Source: a virus. Taken from it: DNA of 48,930 bases. The translations under genes and the position numbers were made by a program. The notes under the pieces are model-generated. The model did no database searches and had not been told where the DNA came from. It saw only the letters and a list, made by a program, of their open reading frames with translations. The DNA lies in the IMG/VR virus record IMGVR_UViG_3300048997_000141, positions 1-48,930 of that record; one strand, 5' to 3'. The first letter of the stretch is position 1, and each line of letters begins with the position of its first letter. Below, piece after piece: positions 29,682 through 42,279 of the stretch.

Positions 29682-30926
29682 TTGACGTCAGGCATCTTCC
29701 GCACCGCCCCCCTCGCCGATATACAGGTGAACCGTGACCAGCGACAGCGACGTGATCTTGTCAACATCGACGAACTTGCAGAATCCATCCGAGCGCGCGG
29801 ACTTATTAATCCGATTACAGTCACAGGTGACCTTGTCCTTGTTGCCGGAGAGCGCCGGCTTGAGGCTTGCCGTCAGCTTGGATGGGCTAACATACCCTAC
29901 CAGCTTGCTTCTGACCTTTCCCCAGATGAACTCCATGCTATCGAACTCGAAGAAAACATCAAGCGTGTAGACCTTTCTTGGCAAGATCGTGCTCGCGCCA
30001 TCTCTGATTACCACAACTACCTCAAGGCCAAGTCCAAGGACTGGTCGATGGAGAAGACCGGCGAGGCCATGGGTTGGTCCGGCTCCGTGGTGCAGAAGCA
30101 CCTACTCGTCGCGGCCGAACTTGGCAACCCCAAGGTTGCCACCGCCCCCAAGTTTTCAGTCGCACACGGCATCGTTGATCGTCAGCGTTCTCGTAAGGCC
30201 GAGGCTGCTGTAGCTGGCATTCGTGCCACCGCCCCCAAGTCAACCGACGGCCCCGGCGAAATCATTCAGGCCGACTTCCTTAAATGGAGCCAGACCTACG
30301 ATGGACCCCATTTTAATCTGCTGCATTGTGACTTTCCCTACGGCATTAATGCTGACAAATTTGATCAGGGTAGCGCTGCAGCACACGGGGGCTACGCCGA
30401 CACACCCGAGCACTATTTTGATCTCATTGATTGTCTGCTGGGCTTTGCTGATAATCACTGCCATGACAGCTGTCATTTGGTCTTCTGGTTTTCTATGGCC
30501 CACTACACCCCTACACTCGAACGGTTGTCAGCCGGGGGCTGGCGGATCGAGCCCTTTCCACTTGTTTGGATGAAGTCGGACAATGTCGGAATCCTGCCAG
30601 ACCCACAGCGTGGACCCCGTCGAATTTATGAGACAGCTCTCCTTGGATCACGAGGCGATCGAAAGGTTGTCTCAGCTGTTGCAAACGCATTCGCCGGCCC
30701 AACTAGCCGAAACATTCATATGTCCGAGAAGCCGCAGCCCATGCTCGCGCACTTCCTCCGAATGCTTGTTGACGAGAGTACCAGCCTACTTGATCCAACT
30801 GCTGGATCGGGTTCGGCAATCCGGGCCGCCGAGCACTTGAAGGCGACGCGAGCCCTCGGGCTGGAAGTGAATCCTGAATTTGCAAAGCTGGCGCAAGACG
30901 CGCTCGCCGGATCGAGGAAGAAGTGA
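29682..30926 (+). CDS. ParB-like/DNA methyltransferase fusion (TTG start)
   Basis: The 414-residue product starts at TTG 29682 with GGGAGGA 6 nt upstream. Residues 1-150 are ParB/Srx-like: NIDELAESIRARGLINP, AGERRLEA (55-62), ELEENIKRVDL (88-98) and an HTH after that. Residues 195-410 are a DNA methyltransferase with motif IV HCDFPYG (215-221), where the usual DPPY is DFPY, and motif I DPTAGSGSAIRAAEHL (371-386). Such fusions modify phage DNA, perhaps at sites chosen by the ParB-like part. An N4/N6 type is inferred from the motif. Confidence 0.85.
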   Translation: MTSGIFRTAPLADIQVNRDQRQRRDLVNIDELAESIRARGLINPITVTGDLVLVAGERRLEACRQLGWANIPYQLASDLSPDELHAIELEENIKRVDLSWQDRARAISDYHNYLKAKSKDWSMEKTGEAMGWSGSVVQKHLLVAAELGNPKVATAPKFSVAHGIVDRQRSRKAEAAVAGIRATAPKSTDGPGEIIQADFLKWSQTYDGPHFNLLHCDFPYGINADKFDQGSAAAHGGYADTPEHYFDLIDCLLGFADNHCHDSCHLVFWFSMAHYTPTLERLSAGGWRIEPFPLVWMKSDNVGILPDPQRGPRRIYETALLGSRGDRKVVSAVANAFAGPTSRNIHMSEKPQPMLAHFLRMLVDESTSLLDPTAGSGSAIRAAEHLKATRALGLEVNPEFAKLAQDALAGSRKK

Positions 30927-31619: not shown

Positions 31620-31810
31620 CTCCCCCATCCGAAGAACTGTACCAAGAAGTTAAAGCTTTCCTCGACAGTCTTACTCCCGAACACATGGCTGAAAAACCTC
31701 TCGAACTTCTCATGGAAGCTGAAGTGCTTCTGGTTAAGGCAAACGTTTACGTAGGCCTTTACGCCATTCACCGAGCAAAAACTGATGGCCAAAATAGCAC
31801 TCCTCGGTGA
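31616..31810 (+). CDS. Small helical early protein
   Basis: The 64-residue product (MTPPSEELYQEVKAFLDSLT then PEHMAEKPLELLMEAEVLLV) is acidic, helical and Leu/Glu-rich. Its end overlaps the next gene by 26 bp. It may help the glycosylase/exonuclease product, but only position says so. Confidence 0.55.
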   Translation: MTPPSEELYQEVKAFLDSLTPEHMAEKPLELLMEAEVLLVKANVYVGLYAIHRAKTDGQNSTPR

Positions 31811-32843
31811 GGCCTGGGGCGAGTACGAGGCAAAGCTGAAGCACCCGTTCGTCGGCCCCTCCGGCCGCGAACTTGTCCGGATGCTCGCCCAGGCTGGCTA
31901 CTTTCCCGATCCGAAGGTCTGGGACGAGGAAGCCGTCCGCCGCTTCTGGCTGACCCAGAACGTGGTCAGCCTCCATAACGTGTTCAACATCCGGCCGGAG
32001 CCGACAAACGATGTCACAAATCTGTGTGGAAGCAAAAGTGATGATATTGTGCGAGGGCTTGAACCTCTCGCTCCCGGTAAATATTTACTTGGACGATACG
32101 CAGGGGAACTCGATCGAGTTACGACCGAGCTTACAGATGCTGCTCCAAACATTATCATTGCCCTGGGCTCTACAGCAGCCTGGTTCCTCTTTGGCAGCGG
32201 GCGAATATCGAAAGTTCGTGGCGCGATTGCAGGGAGCCGTTTCGGCAAAGTCCTCGCTACCTATCACCCCTCCGCCGTACTTCGACAGTGGGACCTCCGT
32301 CCCGTTACCATCCTCGATCTGGCAAAAGCTCGACGAGAGTCGGCCTTCCGAGAAATCCGACGACCCGCCCGAGAAGCCTGGATTGCCCCCACTCTGGCAG
32401 ACCTTGAAGAATTTTATGAGAGGTATATAGCAGATGCCAAGTTCCTCAGCGTCGATATCGAAACATACGCGGACACGATTACTTGCATCGGTTTCGCCCC
32501 GAGCACTAACCGCTGTATTGTTGTCCCCTTCAGCGACCCACGGCGCGAAACTTATTCGTACTGGGGATCAATGGGAGACGAGGCTCGCGCATGGCTATGG
32601 GTGCGACGAGTGCTACAACATTCTTCAGCAAAAGTTTTCCAGAATGGGCTTTACGACCTACACTTCCTCTGGCGTCGTTACGGCATCGCTGTAGCCAACG
32701 CCGGCGAAGACACCATGCTTCTCCACCATGCCCTCCAGCCCGAGTCGCCGAAGGGCCTCGACTTCCTTGGCTCCGTCTATACCAGCGAAGCCGGATGGAA
32801 GTTAATGCGCCGGTCAGTCACAACAATCAAAAAGGAGGAATAA
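31785..32843 (+). CDS. Uracil-DNA-glycosylase-like domain fused to the first part of a polymerase 3'-5' exonuclease
   Basis: The 352-residue product has a UDG-superfamily half (1-190): LGEAWGEYEAKLKHPFVGPS (7-26), HNVFNIRPEPTND (64-76), IIALGSTAAWFLFG (124-137) and ATYHPSAVLRQ (158-168). The second half (200-352) is the start of a family A 3'-5' exonuclease: Exo I SVDIET (222-227) and Exo II QNGLYDLHFL (286-295). Exo III is missing here and occurs at the start of the separate polymerase gene. The N-terminal CxxC of iron-sulphur family 4 enzymes is not seen. Uracil recognition next to proofreading is implied. Confidence 0.85.
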   Translation: MAKIALLGEAWGEYEAKLKHPFVGPSGRELVRMLAQAGYFPDPKVWDEEAVRRFWLTQNVVSLHNVFNIRPEPTNDVTNLCGSKSDDIVRGLEPLAPGKYLLGRYAGELDRVTTELTDAAPNIIIALGSTAAWFLFGSGRISKVRGAIAGSRFGKVLATYHPSAVLRQWDLRPVTILDLAKARRESAFREIRRPAREAWIAPTLADLEEFYERYIADAKFLSVDIETYADTITCIGFAPSTNRCIVVPFSDPRRETYSYWGSMGDEARAWLWVRRVLQHSSAKVFQNGLYDLHFLWRRYGIAVANAGEDTMLLHHALQPESPKGLDFLGSVYTSEAGWKLMRRSVTTIKKEE

Positions 32844-33169
32844 TGCGACGTGTGATTGTTGAGTCCCCCTACGCGGGCGACACCGAGACCAACATCCGCT
32901 ACGCGCAGGATGCGCTGCTCGACTCCCTCCAGCGTGGCGAAGCCCCTTTCGCCAGCCATCTTCTGTACACCCAGGTCCTCGCAGACAAGGGCGCTGCCCG
33001 TGATCTTGGCATCAAAGCGGGCGTAGTCTGGGGACTCGTCGCCAACGCCGCTGTCTTCTACACCGACCTCGGCTGGTCGCCGGGGATGCTTACGGCCCGA
33101 GATTTCTACGGCCGTCCCCGCACACTGGTCACGGTTGAAGAACGGAGCCTCCCCGCGTGGCGAAAATAA
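32843..33169 (+). CDS. DUF7768-like protein (nucleoside-deoxyribosyltransferase-like fold)
   Basis: The 108-residue product starts behind AAAGGAGGA, overlapping the upstream stop (TAATG). It reads RRVIVESPYAGDTETNIRYA, then DSLQRGEAPFASHLLYTQVL, then GVVWGLVANAAVFYTDLGWS. VESPYAG, then ApfASHLLYTQ and YTDLG are the marks of the DUF7768-like phage family, related in fold to nucleoside 2-deoxyribosyltransferases. It sits between the two halves of the polymerase. A role in nucleotide handling is possible. It overlaps the polymerase start by 13 bp. Confidence 0.82.
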   Translation: MRRVIVESPYAGDTETNIRYAQDALLDSLQRGEAPFASHLLYTQVLADKGAARDLGIKAGVVWGLVANAAVFYTDLGWSPGMLTARDFYGRPRTLVTVEERSLPAWRK

Positions 33170-34668
33170 TCCAGACCGCCGACCTACACCCCGGCGAGCC
33201 CGCCAGCGACACGGAGAAGCTATGGGTCTACAACGCCCTCGATTGCATGGTCACGCTGGAGGTCTACGAAACCATCGAGCCTATGCTCGACAACCATACC
33301 CGCGCCACCTACGAGTTCTCTAAATCCCTCCAAGCCCCGGTGCTGGAGATGAACATGCACGGCGTGCTGATCGACAAGTCTCAGCGCGACCGTCTGCTTA
33401 CCGCGTACTCCGCCGACATCAACCGCCTCGCCACCCAGCTTAACCGGATCATCGAGGAGGGCATCGGCATCCAGATGAACTGGAACAGCCCTCAGCAGCT
33501 GAAGGAACTTCTCTATGAGCGACTCCGCCTCCCTCCGGTTCGTAAGCGAAACGCAAAGGGCCAGCTTGTCCCGACAGCTGATCGAGGGGCACTTGAGAAA
33601 CTCTCTGACTACTTCGTGGCACAACCGATTATCAACCACATTCTGGCCCTCCGAGACCTGTCAAAAAAGGCTGGCGTCCTTAGAACTTCGATTGACACCG
33701 ACGGACGAATCAGGACAAGTTTCAATATCGGTGGAACAACTACTGGCCGCTTGGCTTCTTCACTGTCCGACTTCGGAACGGGAACGAATCTCCAAAATAT
33801 TGAGCAGCGGCTTCGTCGTATCCTTGTCGCAGATCCCGGATACAAATTCGCCTATATCGACCTCGAACAAGCCGAGTCCCGAGCCGTCGCCGGAATAGTC
33901 TGGAACCTCTTTCAGGATGGCCGCTACCTCGACGCCTGCGAGTCGGGCGATCTTCATACCAGCGTCTGCAAGATGGCGTGGCGGAACCTGCCCTGGACGG
34001 GCAACCTTAAGGAGGATAAAGATGTCGCAGAACTTCCGTTCTATCGAATGTTCAGTTACCGTGACATGGCCAAACGTCTTGGGCATGGTTCCAACTATTA
34101 CGGACAGCCTGCACACATGGCTAAACAAACTAAGATCGAGCAGCGAATCGTTTCAGAATTTCAAGGTGCGTATTTTTCTGCCTTCCCTGGTATACCAAGA
34201 TGGCACGCTTGGGTTCAGCGGGAACTCCGCGAAACTGGCTATCTCGTTTCGCTTACAGGAAGAAAACGTTGGTTCTTCGGTCGGCGAGATGACCCAGAGA
34301 CTTTACGTGCTGCCATTGCCTTTAGTCCTCAAGGAGGGATCGGTGACATTCTCAACTCCGGCATGCTCGCCGTCTGGCGATCCGGCATAGCCCAGCTACT
34401 GCTCCAAATCCACGACGCCATTCTCATCCAATATCGCGAAGCGGATGAGGACTGGGTCGTGCCGCAGGCGATGAAGCTACTGGTCCAGCCGTTTCAGCTT
34501 GACCACGGCCGAACCCTCGTCATCCCCTGCGAAGCGAAAGTCGGATGGAATTGGGCGAACCAAGAAACAGATCGAGCGGGCAATGTAATTGGTAACCCGA
34601 ACGGCCTGGCCAAGTGGCGCGGCCACGACGACCGCCAACGTGTCGGATTTCTAGATGAAGTTCTGTAA
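33157..34668 (+). CDS. DNA polymerase family A, lacking the first part of the exonuclease domain
   Basis: The 503-residue product starts at GTG 33157 (GGAG, 9-nt spacing). It opens with Exo III (VYNALDCMVTLEVYE, 24-38), which other polymerases carry after Exo I and II; those are in the upstream gene. Polymerase motif A is FAYIDLEQAESR (231-242), the O helix is RDMAKRLGHGSNYYG (302-316) and motif C is QIHDAILI (417-424), where the usual HDE is HDA. It should copy phage DNA. A working proofreading domain would need the two polypeptides to associate. Confidence 0.9.
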   Translation: MAKIIQTADLHPGEPASDTEKLWVYNALDCMVTLEVYETIEPMLDNHTRATYEFSKSLQAPVLEMNMHGVLIDKSQRDRLLTAYSADINRLATQLNRIIEEGIGIQMNWNSPQQLKELLYERLRLPPVRKRNAKGQLVPTADRGALEKLSDYFVAQPIINHILALRDLSKKAGVLRTSIDTDGRIRTSFNIGGTTTGRLASSLSDFGTGTNLQNIEQRLRRILVADPGYKFAYIDLEQAESRAVAGIVWNLFQDGRYLDACESGDLHTSVCKMAWRNLPWTGNLKEDKDVAELPFYRMFSYRDMAKRLGHGSNYYGQPAHMAKQTKIEQRIVSEFQGAYFSAFPGIPRWHAWVQRELRETGYLVSLTGRKRWFFGRRDDPETLRAAIAFSPQGGIGDILNSGMLAVWRSGIAQLLLQIHDAILIQYREADEDWVVPQAMKLLVQPFQLDHGRTLVIPCEAKVGWNWANQETDRAGNVIGNPNGLAKWRGHDDRQRVGFLDEVL

Positions 34669-35866: not shown

Positions 35867-36511
35867 CGGCTGCTTTGATCGCATCACTTCCAGTTCCGTG
35901 TGGTCCGTAGATTGCGCCTTCAATAAATCGGTGATCGCCTGCCGCAGATCGGCATTCGATTTTGTCTCCCAGTCCCGAATACTTGTAATCGATTGCGCCA
36001 TCGTCTGCACCCGTTCGGTCAGCAGTTCCTGTGCCTGCACTGCTTTCTCAATCTCGGGGATATACTTGTCCGTCCGCAGGGCTGTTGCCTTCCGCTCGTC
36101 ATCCAGCGCACTCTTTAGATTTTCAATTCCCGCCTGCATCGTAAGCATACTCGCGGCTACAGTGGTAAATTGTTTATTCGTTGTCTCGCGGTCATTATTG
36201 ATTGCAGTATAGATTGCGCTGTTCGTTGCTACGCCGAAGGTGGTAACTCCGACAATCGCGCCGATCACAATCACCGCCGCGCTTAGCCCTGCGAATATCT
36301 CTGCTCGAGTCCAGCGGTTAGGTGGCCCAGGTGGGTCCATTTGTTGCAGCTTCAGCATCGCGCGGGCGATCTTATCTTCGAAATCCTGCTGTGACGCAAA
36401 CAGCAGCCCTGACTCCGTCGTGATATGATCGCCCTCGGCGTTGTCTCTTCGCTCTTCTTGCAACTTCTTCCACTCGGGATCGTTGAAGTTCATACGCTCA
36501 CCGTTCATCAT
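35852..36511 (-). CDS. Single-span membrane protein with coiled-coil tail
   Basis: The 219-residue product has an acidic start, one transmembrane helix (about residues 72-94, IFAGLSAAVIVIGAIVGVTT), then a long helical coiled coil (LKSALDDERKATALRTDKYI, QELLTERVQTMAQ). The order fits an inner-membrane anchor with a periplasmic or cytoplasmic rod, as in i-spanin-like or virion proteins. ATGATG starts overlap the stop of the giant protein. It is the last late gene before the hairpin. Spanin is one possibility, not shown. Confidence 0.65.
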   Translation of the reverse strand: MMNGERMNFNDPEWKKLQEERRDNAEGDHITTESGLLFASQQDFEDKIARAMLKLQQMDPPGPPNRWTRAEIFAGLSAAVIVIGAIVGVTTFGVATNSAIYTAINNDRETTNKQFTTVAASMLTMQAGIENLKSALDDERKATALRTDKYIPEIEKAVQAQELLTERVQTMAQSITSIRDWETKSNADLRQAITDLLKAQSTDHTELEVMRSKQPPAGH

Positions 36512-39500
36512 TTATGCTTGCGTCCAGGCTGCGATCGACCCATGAGCAGGCCCCGGGCCATCTCTCCAGGGTTGTTGGCGAACTGTTTGTTATGTTCAAT
36601 ATCCCAGAGGAACTGACCTGTTGTTCCGGCCTGCCCCGTGCCCGGCAATGGAATAAAAACGTTCACAGCACTTGCTGCGTCTCGAAGCGCACTCGGTGCT
36701 GGTTTGCCGCCGGTTGCCTCTTCGGCCAGGTTATACGCCGTAAGCAGCAGTGACTTGATTGGCTCATACGCCGGACTGGCCGATACATCAATATGCTGTC
36801 GCCCCTTGTGGAACGCATCGAGCACCGCAGCTGATAGATCGCGCAGCAGGGGTATGCCAGAGAATTGCGTATGCACTAGTTCCAGTCCGAACTCCTTCGC
36901 CCAATCCTCGCCCTTCGAAAAACCGCCAGCAATCGCCATCTCGCCCAGCGTTACCATCGCCCCATAGTATACAGTGTAGCTAATGGCATTGATGAATTTC
37001 TGGCTAGCTTTATCGTAGTTCCCATGAACAAGGTCGCTTGGAATTTGCGCCACCCCTTTCCCAACCTCGTACTGCTTCTGAAATACCCTGTTAAAGAAGC
37101 CCATCGCAACCATCATAGTGCGGAGGAACTCATTATTGTTCCGCATCAGCGCCGGCTGATCTACGATGTTGCCGGAGCCATGAGCACGGCGAACCGCTTC
37201 GTTCGCTTCTGCTACCGCATCCTCGAACGGCTTACCTTCAGCCAGTGCATTCTTCTTGGCGGCGATATAGGTTGGCGCAGCCGAGAACATATCTGTCAGC
37301 GCGTAACCAATATGCCCCCAATGATTAGCTGTAGCGAGCGTGCTGTTCTGTCCAAGGCTTCGCAAATCCTGGTCGTGGAGATCACGATCCATGTTCGCCC
37401 AGCGAGTTCGAAGCTCGCCCGACTCCGCCATCAGCTGCTGGATTTTCTCTGGGAACCGAACGGGGTTAGCAAACAGTTCGCCTGTGGCTTTCGCAAACGG
37501 AACCAGCCCAACCTCGTGTGCGCTAGTCGCACCGACTGCCGTGAAATGCTTTCCGAGAGTGCTGGCCCGATAGGTAAGCTGGCCCAACACAAAGCCCAGC
37601 CGCTGCCGCTGCATGAACTTAGCAAGCGCACCAGCCCCCGCGTCCATCTGCTGTAGCCCACCACCAGCGACATCTTTGAGATAATCGTCGAACAGTTTCG
37701 CACGATCCTTGCCGACAGCATCTTTCAGCGCTCGCTGCACCCCCGACCGATCGAGGAACTTCTTTGCTTCCATCAGCGGCTGCCGGAACGATACATCGTG
37801 GATCATCTCGCGGAGCGCTGACGCCACCGCTCCCGGCTGCAAGTCCACCGCGTACAGCGCCGACGTTACATCTTTTGAGTAACCAGCTGCTGGTTTGCTT
37901 CCACGCCAGTTTCCATTGTCAAATAGCGCCTCTGGCTTTCGCGGCTTGATATCGTTCCGCAGTGGGTCCTGCCGCAGCGGCGCATAGCCGCCATCGTAGG
38001 TGCCGAATGGAGTATCGATCGAGACTGGCTCTTTCTTTCGCGGAGCTACGCCGGTTGTCCGTCGCTCATTCTCTTCCACTCGCGGCCACATCTCTTTCTC
38101 GAACAGGTTCCAAATACCCTGCGCCCAGCCCCAGTCCTTCTCTGTAGCATTATCGTGAATGAAGTCCATAACCGACTGCTTGGTCCACTTAGCGATGTTC
38201 GGATCACGCCGCTCCAGCGCCACGTTCATCCCGTTAACCAGCTTCTTGACGTTCTCTTCCGACCCAACATGCAGCATCATTTGCCGCATTTCGCCAATCG
38301 TCAGATCGCGGAGCTTACCATCCACATCGTACAGTCGCGTATTCTTAGCGGTGTTCTTCCCTGCCTTCTGGAAGTCCTTGTCCCCCGCAAGTTCCCGCAA
38401 CTTCCCGCCGATCAACTTCTCCAAGTCGCCTTGGAGATACTTCGCCTCTTGCAGTGGCCGCTGAAATATCCGATCTACGAGGCCGCCGAACTTTCCGCCG
38501 TCCATCTCCCGCGCGATAACCGACATCGACAGCATCGCATCGGTCATATCATGGATGCCCTTGCCCAGCTTTTTGAAGTAGCCGGGCGGGCGCAAATCGA
38601 TTTCCCGTGGCACCGGGAACACATCACGTAGCTGGTCACGCAGCTGACCCTCTAGGTCGGCCGCCGCCATTTCGGCTTCGCCCAGCCGGACTTTTTGCAG
38701 TTCCCGCCCTGCGTGCGCGAGCGTCTGGATGGAGTCCCGGATTTCGCGGAACCGCTGAACGTCCACCTTCGAGAAGTTGATCTGTTGATCGAGGCCATCG
38801 GCGACCGGGAGGTCCAGCCCGAGGTTGTCCCGGATGTCGGCAAGGAAGCTAGCCAGCGGCTTATCGTGCACAGCCCGTCTAAGTTCGGCCGTGTCCCGGC
38901 GTAGCCCGAACTGCAGATTCACAAGAATCCGCTGGATCTGGTCGGAGAATCCCTGCTCAACCTTCTCCACAACTTTGTTCTTGATGAAGGGATCGGTCAG
39001 TCGTTTGAACCCTTCAGTCTCCTTAGCGAACGCTCGCGCTTCCCGAGCCAAAACAAAATTGGTAAGTTGCCGCAGTTTGTTTTGGAGCGCTGTGACCGGA
39101 TCTCCTTTAAGTAGCGCCGTCTCAGCCGCTTGGCCATACTTACCCGCCAGCCGAGCAAACGCTTCAAACTTCCCGGCATTCTTGGCTGGCGTTGTGGAGA
39201 AGAGGTCTCTAGCATGTTGTTCAACTGCCTCCCTCGTCAGCTGCTTATCACCTGCTATAGTGTTTGCCTCTTCGGTCAGTACATCGAGCTGCGCCACCGA
39301 CATAACCGCATCGATCGCAGCATTGCGAACCCGGTCGTCAAACCGACCGTGCTCGTCTTCTACCCGCCGCTCCGCCTCCGCGCGCACAAGCTTCTCGAAA
39401 TACTTCGCAGGCTGTTCCGTGCCCCGCTGCCGCTGGAGATCGATAAGGGCGTCGAGCATCTCTCGGCCGGAGTGGAAGCCGAAGGTGTCTGCGATTTCGT

Positions 39501-42279
39501 CGGGATGGTATCCGTCTTTGGCCCAGATACCTTTCGGGAGTTCGTTGAGCCCACCTTTATCTCCTATAAGTTTCTCTAGCTGCGCGCGTCCCTCTTCAAC
39601 CGAAAGAGCACCACTGGCCACATCCTTTCGAAGCTGCTCAAGTTCAGCTCTTTTATGCACGTTGGCAAAATCAGCATCATGCGCATTTATTTCAGCAAGT
39701 AACTGTGCTGTTTCACGCTTTCCCGTCCAGGGCCGTTTAGTTGGATCAGTCTCCGAACCAAGACGATTTATATCAGTAGCAGCAACCATGTCTCCTTGGC
39801 TATTCAGTACCGACCTTGTAATAACTCCATCGATACCGGTATGCGTAGTAGTAACAGCGTTGGCAGTACCTGATGATTTGGTTTCGCCTAAGTCAGGATC
39901 TGAGACTACGAAATGATTTCCATTCGCATCTTTAACTGTTTTAACGCCAGAGACTTGCTCTGGCATAAGTTCTTCGGTCGCCTCGCGATTAAGCTTTCGC
40001 CCCAGCGGATCGTCCTTACGGTCGCCGCGCAGCGTCCGGTCGGCCTCGTGGACCGGCGTAGCCTCGAGTTCGCTACGGACCTCGTCCGACCGCTTCCGGA
40101 CTTCGTCCTTCCAGAACGCCGTCTCCCGCCGCTTAATCTCCCGCTCCGCTGCATCCATCGCGCCCTTGGCCAGCCCGAATTGGACCTTCTGGATCAGCTT
40201 GCTGTAGCGGGCGAAGTTGGCGGCCGGCATTCCCGCAGCGTCGGACGTAAGAATTGGGTCGAGCCAAAGCTGTCGGCGGACGGCATCTTCGTTGGCGAGG
40301 ACATGAGTCTCGGTTGCAGTAGCTATTGGATTGATCAGTGCTTCTCTTCGTACAATTTTGGTCAAGGCCGACCGAACCGCTATGCTTGTGCCTTGGTGGC
40401 CCTCGTCAACCAGCATAGCACCAAATTCAGGCGAGTGCTGCAGAACGGTTCGAGCATTCCCAAACCCAGGCAGTCCTGAAGCCTGAATAAATCCTTCACT
40501 GGTTAACTTTGGAAGTTTTTCATCAGGGTCACTTACAGTCTTATTAAATTGAGTGCGTAACTGCTTATAATGGGCTTGCCCTTCAGCTGTTCGCAAATCA
40601 AGAACTTGCCCAAGGTCCGCTTGAACATGATATATAGTTGGTCCTTCAGTCGCTCCTTGAATTTTCCCTGAACCCAGTAAATCGTTTTGGGCGTATTCTT
40701 TAGCAACTGCCGGATCAGCAGTTAAGTAAGAAATTCCGTCAAGGGAACTTAGCTGGTCAATATCCGAGTAACGACTGCCGTGGTATAGCACAGGCTGCTT
40801 TTCGATTAAACCTTTGGTCTCTGGCAGTTCCTTCGCCTCATTAACCGTCAGCCCACTCTCGCCCCGGATATCATCCTTGACCAGGTCGTGAACTTCAGTT
40901 GACGTCTTCGCGAAGTACTCTCCAGAGGGGATGCTAACGTCGCCGCCATGAACTTGTGCCTGCGCCACCTTCGACTCGATGTCCGGGACGTAGCTGAAAG
41001 CGGTCGGGTCGCTCGCACGCACCTCTGCGATCTTGTCCGCCGAGACATCGATAGTCTTGCCGTTGTCAATCGCCTGCGACAGCAGGTCAGGCACTCGCTC
41101 TTTCGCTTTGGTCGCATCCGCCGCCGCCATCGTGGCGTCACGAGCGGCGGCTTCAGTCTCGGTCTGCTTGATATGGAACTGGTCGATGAGGGGATGCAGC
41201 CCGACGGGCAAGGCCCCGATCACCGCGCCGCCGATCAGACCATCGCGGGCTGCGTCCACGATTTGTTGCGATAGCTGCGCTCGTTCGGTCGGATCGTTGA
41301 AAATCGTTTTGAAGGCGGGGTCCGTGACCGCACGGGCGATTTGTGGCGCGATGGCTTGTGCGGCTGTCATGGAGGCATTAAGCCCGCCCACGGTCAATCC
41401 TGACCGGCCGGCGGCCCCCGCCATGCGGGTTAACGTCCCGGCTACCACCCGATCACCCGCAAGCTTACTCACCACGTCGGTCACGAGCGCGCTTGTGGCT
41501 TCCGCCGACTCCGCGCCCATCTTGCCGCCTAGCATACCCACTACAGCCCCGCCTGTAATCGATGCTAGTTGTTTCGTGATTTCGGGGATGCGTTCGCCGT
41601 TCGGTCCACGGAACTGATCGGTCGTGAGATAGATGTTGCCCGATGTAGTTGCACTAAGCCCCACGGTCAACCCGGTTGTGGCACCGATCCCAGCTCCAAC
41701 AGGACCCCCCATAGCGAACCCGCCAGCGGTCCCCGTAGCCACTTCCGGCGCAAGCGCAAGCATCCCGCCGATAAAATTACCCGCCGCATTCACCACATAC
41801 CGGTAGCCGGTGTAGTTCGGCGCATCGTCGAGCTGCTTCTTTTTTGCTAGTATGTCCGGTAGTAGGCTACCTGCCCCGGCTTGGTAGGCTGCCGCCTCAC
41901 GTCCGAGATTGGTCTCCCGATAGCCATGCACCATGCCAGCCCAGCCAGTCCAATCCGCCCAGCCGTTCGCTGTGTCTTTCGCCTTTTTGATCGCAGGTAG
42001 GTCGTCGGCCACCGCCTCGTAGTCGGTCGGTGAGCGTATCACCCCCGCGAGGTCGGGATCGCCGCTGACGATCTGGGCGTTCCGCCGCTGTTGCACCTGC
42101 GCAGTGTAGCCGGGGGTGTCCGTGTTCACAACCGCAGGCGGTAGCCCAACCTGCGGCGCAAGCTGTACAGCCTTACCTGCTTGCTCAGCATTTGGCTGTG
42201 GCGTGCCTGTGATCCACCGCTGCGCCTGTTCTTCTGGCGTCACATACTGCGAGACAACGTCATCATACTCATTCGGCAT
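36508..42279 (-). CDS. Giant internal virion/polyvalent protein with ADP-ribosyltransferase-like segment
   Basis: The 1,923-residue product has Gly/Ala-rich hydrophobic stretches at about 165-310, which could enter membranes. An ART-PolyVal-like segment lies at 497-640 (VLYHGSRYSD at 497-506, ISYLTADPAVAKEYA at 516-530, YHVQADLGQVLDL at 550-562). Long helical repeats follow, with Lys/Glu-rich blocks, and the end is Gly/Asn/Pro-rich. Giant proteins at this place in podoviruses (T7 gp16, DarB-type) are ejected with DNA. The ART fold suggests modification of a host target, but the catalytic triad needs a model to confirm. Confidence 0.82.
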   Translation of the reverse strand: MPNEYDDVVSQYVTPEEQAQRWITGTPQPNAEQAGKAVQLAPQVGLPPAVVNTDTPGYTAQVQQRRNAQIVSGDPDLAGVIRSPTDYEAVADDLPAIKKAKDTANGWADWTGWAGMVHGYRETNLGREAAAYQAGAGSLLPDILAKKKQLDDAPNYTGYRYVVNAAGNFIGGMLALAPEVATGTAGGFAMGGPVGAGIGATTGLTVGLSATTSGNIYLTTDQFRGPNGERIPEITKQLASITGGAVVGMLGGKMGAESAEATSALVTDVVSKLAGDRVVAGTLTRMAGAAGRSGLTVGGLNASMTAAQAIAPQIARAVTDPAFKTIFNDPTERAQLSQQIVDAARDGLIGGAVIGALPVGLHPLIDQFHIKQTETEAAARDATMAAADATKAKERVPDLLSQAIDNGKTIDVSADKIAEVRASDPTAFSYVPDIESKVAQAQVHGGDVSIPSGEYFAKTSTEVHDLVKDDIRGESGLTVNEAKELPETKGLIEKQPVLYHGSRYSDIDQLSSLDGISYLTADPAVAKEYAQNDLLGSGKIQGATEGPTIYHVQADLGQVLDLRTAEGQAHYKQLRTQFNKTVSDPDEKLPKLTSEGFIQASGLPGFGNARTVLQHSPEFGAMLVDEGHQGTSIAVRSALTKIVRREALINPIATATETHVLANEDAVRRQLWLDPILTSDAAGMPAANFARYSKLIQKVQFGLAKGAMDAAEREIKRRETAFWKDEVRKRSDEVRSELEATPVHEADRTLRGDRKDDPLGRKLNREATEELMPEQVSGVKTVKDANGNHFVVSDPDLGETKSSGTANAVTTTHTGIDGVITRSVLNSQGDMVAATDINRLGSETDPTKRPWTGKRETAQLLAEINAHDADFANVHKRAELEQLRKDVASGALSVEEGRAQLEKLIGDKGGLNELPKGIWAKDGYHPDEIADTFGFHSGREMLDALIDLQRQRGTEQPAKYFEKLVRAEAERRVEDEHGRFDDRVRNAAIDAVMSVAQLDVLTEEANTIAGDKQLTREAVEQHARDLFSTTPAKNAGKFEAFARLAGKYGQAAETALLKGDPVTALQNKLRQLTNFVLAREARAFAKETEGFKRLTDPFIKNKVVEKVEQGFSDQIQRILVNLQFGLRRDTAELRRAVHDKPLASFLADIRDNLGLDLPVADGLDQQINFSKVDVQRFREIRDSIQTLAHAGRELQKVRLGEAEMAAADLEGQLRDQLRDVFPVPREIDLRPPGYFKKLGKGIHDMTDAMLSMSVIAREMDGGKFGGLVDRIFQRPLQEAKYLQGDLEKLIGGKLRELAGDKDFQKAGKNTAKNTRLYDVDGKLRDLTIGEMRQMMLHVGSEENVKKLVNGMNVALERRDPNIAKWTKQSVMDFIHDNATEKDWGWAQGIWNLFEKEMWPRVEENERRTTGVAPRKKEPVSIDTPFGTYDGGYAPLRQDPLRNDIKPRKPEALFDNGNWRGSKPAAGYSKDVTSALYAVDLQPGAVASALREMIHDVSFRQPLMEAKKFLDRSGVQRALKDAVGKDRAKLFDDYLKDVAGGGLQQMDAGAGALAKFMQRQRLGFVLGQLTYRASTLGKHFTAVGATSAHEVGLVPFAKATGELFANPVRFPEKIQQLMAESGELRTRWANMDRDLHDQDLRSLGQNSTLATANHWGHIGYALTDMFSAAPTYIAAKKNALAEGKPFEDAVAEANEAVRRAHGSGNIVDQPALMRNNNEFLRTMMVAMGFFNRVFQKQYEVGKGVAQIPSDLVHGNYDKASQKFINAISYTVYYGAMVTLGEMAIAGGFSKGEDWAKEFGLELVHTQFSGIPLLRDLSAAVLDAFHKGRQHIDVSASPAYEPIKSLLLTAYNLAEEATGGKPAPSALRDAASAVNVFIPLPGTGQAGTTGQFLWDIEHNKQFANNPGEMARGLLMGRSQPGRKHK

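Follow-up and report, generated by a model that had tools for sequence, protein, structure and literature searches.

A phage family A DNA polymerase encoded by two genes, with its proofreading motifs divided between them

The question raised by the locus described here is whether the proofreading site of a DNA polymerase can be shared between two polypeptides and, if so, how such an arrangement came about. The locus lies in IMG/VR virus record IMGVR_UViG_3300048997_000141, whose full length of 48,930 bases is referred to below as the window, and which carries genes of the podovirus type, for the large terminase subunit, a portal-type head-tail adaptor, the major head protein and tail proteins. 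The first of three overlapping open reading frames (ORFs) encodes a uracil-DNA glycosylase (UDG)-like domain followed by the first part of a 3'-5' exonuclease (the N chain, or N half), the last encodes the Exo III helix joined to a family A polymerase (the C chain, or C half), and a gene of the DUF7768 family stands between them. An initial annotation, made from the letters of the window, had suggested a polymerase in two parts, both of which are needed for proofreading. That interpretation is probably right: we consider it very likely that a single family A replicative polymerase is made here as two chains, with its proofreading site completed in trans.

The divided exonuclease

The three ORFs are recovered from the window sequence with the boundaries listed in Table 1, and Pfam, PHROGs and motif searches bear out the layout first described for them, with Exo I and Exo II in the UDG fusion, Exo III in the separate polymerase, DUF7768 between the two and overlaps at the gene borders. 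The C chain, which starts with GTG, matches PF00476 (DNA_pol_A, E 2e-39) and phrog_17 (E 1e-60), and belongs to family A (PolA) by its motifs A, B and C, with two catalytic aspartates; no second polymerase was found among the window ORFs scanned. The motifs of a DEDDy exonuclease (D-x-E in Exo I, D in Exo II and Y-x3-D in Exo III) are complete, but they are spread over two chains, and the rule that the whole active site is on one polypeptide is broken at every one of the 182 split loci described below, Exo I and Exo II being in one ORF and Exo III in another.

Relatives were collected by profile scans, five against IMG/VR and one against bacterial genomes, the last of which gave four contigs of metagenome-assembled genomes. 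Profiles were needed because a single-sequence scan with the N half gave no matches. The best 80 matches per scan were kept, and duplicates and fragments were removed; the resulting sample, which is not exhaustive, holds 182 distinct split phage loci and 52 unsplit UDG-PolA loci. Several of the split loci are near-identical, and the dereplicated counts are those of clusters: 142 at 90% identity and 19 at 50%. Identity within the split group goes down to 34%, and the maximum between split and unsplit proteins is 38%. The gene is contiguous in the 52 unsplit relatives, the uncut versions for which the initial annotation had advised a search, and consists of two complete ORFs here, which is what is meant by genes in pieces.

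In all 182 split loci the cut is found at a homologous position, in the loop that runs from Exo II to Exo III. A tree of the joined halves separates these fully from the unsplit loci, with none misplaced and a support of 1.0, and trees of the single halves do the same (support 0.98 for the N half and 1.0 for the C half). So perfect a bipartition indicates that the split arose once. No re-fusion of the halves was seen among the 182 split loci, even where one stop codon is all that parts them, as in three near-identical loci (L144, L149 and L150) with both halves in one frame and a single TAA between. The architecture is also that of an isolated virus, Caulobacter phage Kuura, and its recurrence in 182 distinct loci, this isolate included, is far beyond chance.

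When joined, the halves align over their full length to the unsplit UDG-PolA proteins and nothing is missing. N chains end a median of 14 aa past a conserved WK, usually in a TIKRDE-like tail (140 loci), and C chains start a median of 23 aa ahead of the Exo III tyrosine (141 loci); set against the 18-aa linker of the unsplit proteins, this split-specific tail and lead amount to about 19 residues added at the cut. Against the Klenow chains of E. coli, the alignment of the C-half profile starts at chain position 174, by our own numbering offset Tyr497 of Exo III, and the break thus appears to fall in the segment that connects to the Exo III helix. The two halves had also been said to be in different frames. 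This is true of the window, but it has no particular significance and is not a general property of the group, in which the three frame offsets are found 51, 46 and 44 times across 141 relatives and the three near-identical loci just mentioned keep a single frame.

There is good evidence that the two chains have been maintained together. The Exo I aspartate and glutamate, the Exo II asparagine and aspartate, the Exo III tyrosine and aspartate, and the aspartates of motifs A and C are each invariant in 182 of 182 split loci, against a background in which 25 of 328 well-occupied columns of the N chain and 39 of 475 of the C chain are invariant. Purifying selection is seen in the UDG, exonuclease, Exo III and polymerase segments alike, the ratio of non-synonymous to synonymous substitution (dN/dS) in 17 close pairs being mostly 0.02-0.2 and at most 0.24. 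Distances between N chains correlate with those between C chains (r 0.79; permutation maximum 0.21), and the same two segments within unsplit proteins give r 0.89. In 141 of 141 loci the two halves share a strand and the C half follows the N half, and where only one half was found a contig end is near the missing one. Since catalytic residues are unchanging on both chains, the chains most likely must join to proofread. Together with the obligate synteny, the selection and the congruent histories, these residues give good comparative support to the two-part polymerase first proposed; as judged from sequence, the simplest account is that of two chains acting as one enzyme with a shared exonuclease site.

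In the scheme that we propose, one chain would consist of the UDG-like domain and an exonuclease core with Exo I and Exo II, and the other of the complete polymerase with the Exo III helix attached to it. Each would be translated separately, probably from one transcript, and the two would then assemble non-covalently, so that the acidic residues of Exo I and Exo II in the DEDDy site would come from the first chain and the tyrosine and aspartate of Exo III from the second, in trans. Several observations weigh against this scheme. It should be noted that both the physical assembly and the proofreading activity are things that we infer. The match of the N chain to DNA_pol_A_exo1 (PF01612; aa 205-330, E 8e-5) scores 23.0 bits, which is 0.6 bit below the curated Pfam cut-off of 23.6. 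Structure models of the single chains, built on 4-sequence alignments, are of low confidence (predicted local distance difference test 57.7 for the N chain and 46.2 for the C chain). Covariation between the chains is modest for exonuclease-thumb pairs (47 of the top 200, with 26.7 expected) and gives no clear signal between the exonuclease and the Exo III helix (5, with 4.0 expected), both counts being uncorrected for phylogeny. A Foldseek search with the weak N-chain model returned phiLo PolA as the top match, along with UdgX, ExnV1 and Klenow, and may be taken as supporting at best.

The UDG-like domain of the N chain retains most of the motifs of a family 4 UDG (GExxGxxE, PFxG and HPxxxL), in the forms GEAWGEYE, PFVG and HPSAVL in the window, with the proline of GEAPG replaced by tryptophan or tyrosine, and it has profile matches in the PDB to family 4 UDG and UdgX. 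The four cysteines of the 4Fe-4S cluster are another matter: C81 is the sole cysteine of the window domain. By sequence, then, it would be a UDG-like domain with its motifs largely kept and its iron-sulphur cysteines missing. An insertion of about 17 residues in the window domain (31899-31952, around aa 39-56) is absent from the relatives compared.

Table 1. Features of the divided polymerase locus, in window coordinates
Feature	Positions	Strand	Basis and conservation
N chain: UDG-like domain and first part of 3'-5' exonuclease	31785..32843	+	352 aa; Pfam/PHROGs
UDG-superfamily domain, aa 2-171	31788..32297	+	Pfam PF03167, E 9e-14
Exo I, D224-I-E226-T	32454..32465	+	D, E invariant in 182/182 split loci
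Exo II, N287-G-L-Y-D291	32643..32657	+	N, D invariant in 182/182 split loci
N-chain C-terminal tail after WK, LMRRSVTTIKKEE in the window, consensus ..TIKRDE	32802..32840	+	median 14 aa (140 loci)
AGGAGG Shine-Dalgarno-like site (32833-32838) and TAATG stop/start overlap (32841-32845)	32833..32845	+	sequence
DUF7768 gene in the break, nucleoside 2-deoxyribosyltransferase-like	32843..33169	+	108 aa; PF24963, E 3e-22; phrog_355
GGAG Shine-Dalgarno-like site (33144-33147) and GTG start of polymerase chain	33144..33159	+	sequence
C chain: Exo III helix and complete family A polymerase (thumb, palm, fingers)	33157..34668	+	503 aa; PF00476, PHROGs
C-chain N-terminal lead before Exo III, M[KR].I.T..L.P...	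33157..33228	+	median 23 aa (141 loci)
Exo III, Y25-N-A-L-D29	33229..33243	+	Y, D invariant in 182/182; aligns to Klenow Tyr497
Polymerase motif A, DLEQAESR	33859..33882	+	D invariant in 182/182
Polymerase motif B, RDMAKRLGHGSNYYG	34060..34104	+	R, K, G and final G invariant in 111 loci
Polymerase motif C, QIHDAI	34405..34422	+	D invariant in 182/182

Contents of the break

In the window, the break is filled by a DUF7768 gene whose membership of the family is secure (Pfam score 79.3 bits, gathering cut-off 26). The TAATG overlap of 1 nt couples it to the N chain, and the polymerase chain starts inside its 3' end, with an overlap of 13 nt (33157-33169). Across the split loci the gap reaches a length of about 2.8 kb, with a median of about 365 nt, and at its shortest is -4 nt, where the best-defined cases overlap by ATGA; in 22 of the 182 it is shorter than 60 nt, and some loci have no gene there at all. 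The initial annotation had stressed the DUF7768 insert and had asked for it to be sought at the same site in related phages. It is there in 41 of the 182 gaps. Elsewhere there are unrelated genes or none; DUF7768 does not define the system and is thus best regarded as a passenger. The other occupants include KTSC-domain proteins, MazG, FkbM methyltransferases, a HAD-like protein and deoxyribosyltransferase-like proteins of the DUF1937/DUF4406 type. Two loci that are near-identical around the break (L122 and L136) nevertheless differ by one complete 119-aa gene within it. The break is a site where small genes come and go, and its contents change fast.

That the insert is not a homing nuclease, which had made the break seem unusual, is correct for the window, where DUF7768 is found instead, but the break is not unusual on this count: at least 11 relatives have an HNH-type ORF there, with one of the three HNH families under the Pfam cut-off. 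An ORF in the exonuclease break of another locus (L096:5380-5763) resembles a LAGLIDADG homing nuclease by eye (LAGLLEGEGSF) and has no Pfam match.

The placement of DUF7768 is not random. It is in the gap at 35 of 141 loci and at none elsewhere in the fetched flanks; its presence requires 13 changes on the tree, as compared with 32 for shuffled labels, and its distances track those of the polymerase (r 0.73). The gene may act in nucleotide metabolism, which would be in keeping with the genes around it. As the cause of the split, or as an essential part, it was rejected on its distribution, strict though its position is.

Alternative accounts and the origin of the split

An assembly or sequencing error might be suspected in an uncultivated virus record from IMG/VR, and had been named as something that would undo the proposal. 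It is refuted, with next to no probability left to it, since the split recurs in 182 loci, drawn from many metagenomes, and in the isolate Kuura. It has also to be considered whether the two halves become one protein before they act, through splicing of an intron or intein, a frameshift or read-through of the stop. This polymerase does contain what is very likely an intein in each of two relatives, L151 and L109, and at some loci the halves overlap or have a single TAA between them. Yet the Rfam intron search (group I ribozyme core) found nothing in the window region or in 13 relatives, and the gaps under 60 nt also count against a group I intron; the tail and lead total about 37 aa, have no intein motifs and are too short for a split intein; most gaps contain complete genes or exceed 300 nt; and all three frame offsets are about equally frequent. 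We reject joining as very improbable.

A little more credence, but not much, is due to the idea that the two proteins act apart, the polymerase without proofreading and the UDG-exonuclease protein in uracil handling or as a free nuclease. In favour of this, the N chain is read from a start of its own and carries another functional domain, and a free-standing PolA-type exonuclease, ExnV1, is known (PMC9629493). However, the tyrosine and aspartate of Exo III, which would be needless without proofreading, are invariant on the polymerase chain, the N and C genes always co-occur, and the N chain lacks Exo III, whereas ExnV1 matches Klenow Tyr497 and Asp501 (PMC9629493). Somewhat less improbable, although still not likely, is that DUF7768 is a working third subunit or regulator and owes its place in the break to this. 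The overlaps of its start and stop with the flanking genes, and its confinement to the break when near the split polymerase, are in favour; against it, the gene is absent from about three-quarters of the split loci. The account that we prefer remains that of two chains completing one proofreading site.

As to its origin, a single split event would have taken place in the loop between Exo II and Exo III, in an ancestral phage from which a large clade descends, and would then have become fixed; afterwards the break would have gained and lost small genes, DUF7768 being the present tenant in the window. For T4-type phages a route has been described by which homing nucleases fragment genes whose parts remain functional (PMC2988022). 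The HNH genes at the break between Exo II and Exo III, and those at a break between the UDG and exonuclease domains in two members of the unsplit sister clade (L218 and L239), fit a route of this type, and invasion by a homing-type nuclease is on this analogy the likeliest origin, to which we would give about even chances; in most split loci the first invader can no longer be seen.

If the split brings any benefit, this too is something that we infer. It may be that the UDG-exonuclease chain is a detachable subunit, by which the phage would switch between proofreading and non-proofreading synthesis, coupled to uracil sensing. We think this unlikely, but if true it would make the clade, to our knowledge, the first lineage in which a split of the exonuclease site was fixed adaptively and not merely tolerated. 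Split phage enzymes tend to be described as oddities confined to a single phage or a handful of them, whereas here a cut through the proofreading site has become fixed across a large clade (142 clusters at 90% identity). The cut site is unusual, and so among split phage enzymes are the width, age and stability of its distribution. The many diverse chain pairs provide a natural fragment-complementation system for proofreading, and the break is a well-defined place within an essential enzyme where genes turn over.

Known systems and other breaks

A replicative polymerase made from two adjacent genes has a precedent in the split gp43 of Aeromonas phages 25 and 44RR (PMC2988022); the 43A and 43B proteins of phage 25 co-purify, with polymerase activity (PMC2988022). 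That enzyme differs in being of family B and in being split in few phages, its halves being separated by a seg homing nuclease or by untranslated sequence, whereas the present clade has a family A enzyme cut throughout between Exo II and Exo III. The NrdA of phage Aeh1, into which mobE is inserted, is likewise cut in a functionally critical region and reassembles to a fully functional enzyme (PMC2988022), but it is another enzyme, in one phage, with the homing nuclease still there. Two-ORF family A polymerases are found in the OM43 phages MEP401 and MEP402, with a small unknown gene between the parts in MEP401 (PMC10580990), and in cyanophage Mic1, where 298 bp separate the ORFs of a pol gamma-like polymerase (PMC7156551). 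In these the break is inside the polymerase domain and the exonuclease is whole on the first chain; an intron is suggested or assumed (PMC10580990; PMC7156551). We found no report in the open-access literature of a PolA cut between Exo II and Exo III.

Closer in sequence are the unsplit UDG-PolA proteins of Microcystis phage Mel-JY34, ctMlz233 and relatives, which have the same domain order and about 30% identity to each half, but are one chain with an 18-aa linker. The phiLo polymerase (PDB 9qhs) is the only solved DNA polymerase that matches the UDG part of the N chain in sequence, and it too is a single chain, of 1142 residues. The closest isolate is Kuura, whose genes 029 and 026 have the same split at about 40% identity, with two other small genes in the break. 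They are annotated as 'hypothetical protein' and 'DNA polymerase', and the word split is absent from the Kuura paper. This may serve as a warning to annotators: with its N half called hypothetical, the polymerase seems to have no exonuclease.

Further breaks were seen in UDG-PolA relatives. The palm is broken in Vibrio phage VS-ABTNL-3 (L004) and in L211, L233, L234, L235 and L238. The palm break of the last of these holds a dUTPase gene (L238:5132-5584; PF00692, E 7e-20), a striking neighbour for a uracil-related domain. The break in the UDG-PolA of ctLwi270 (L012:1727-4364) comes directly behind the exonuclease domain and is one more independent position. The UDG/exonuclease breaks of L218 (1362-1662) and L239 (4645-4945) hold an ORF of the same family as the HNH gene of L110, possibly a recent invasion.

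In-frame insertions are also found. In L151 (5336-7786) and L109 (3536-5497) an insert of about 290 aa lies between DFGTG and TNLQN of the polymerase chain; it begins with cysteine, has GN before threonine at its end and contains a TPxHRV motif, and is very likely an intein in an already split polymerase. L109 has a frame change in the thumb region as well. The unsplit L213 (4001-7231), L215, L216 and L219 have about 860-930 bp inserted in frame in the polymerase, near query residue 645; this is probably another intein.

Two other genes of the window may be mentioned. Just upstream of the polymerase genes, 29682-30926 encodes a ParB-N domain fused to an N6/N4 DNA methyltransferase, and ParB-N/methyltransferase-like genes occupy the same place in relatives. 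On the minus strand, 36508-42279 encodes a 1923-aa protein, residues 680-1917 of which match phrog_9880 (function unknown).

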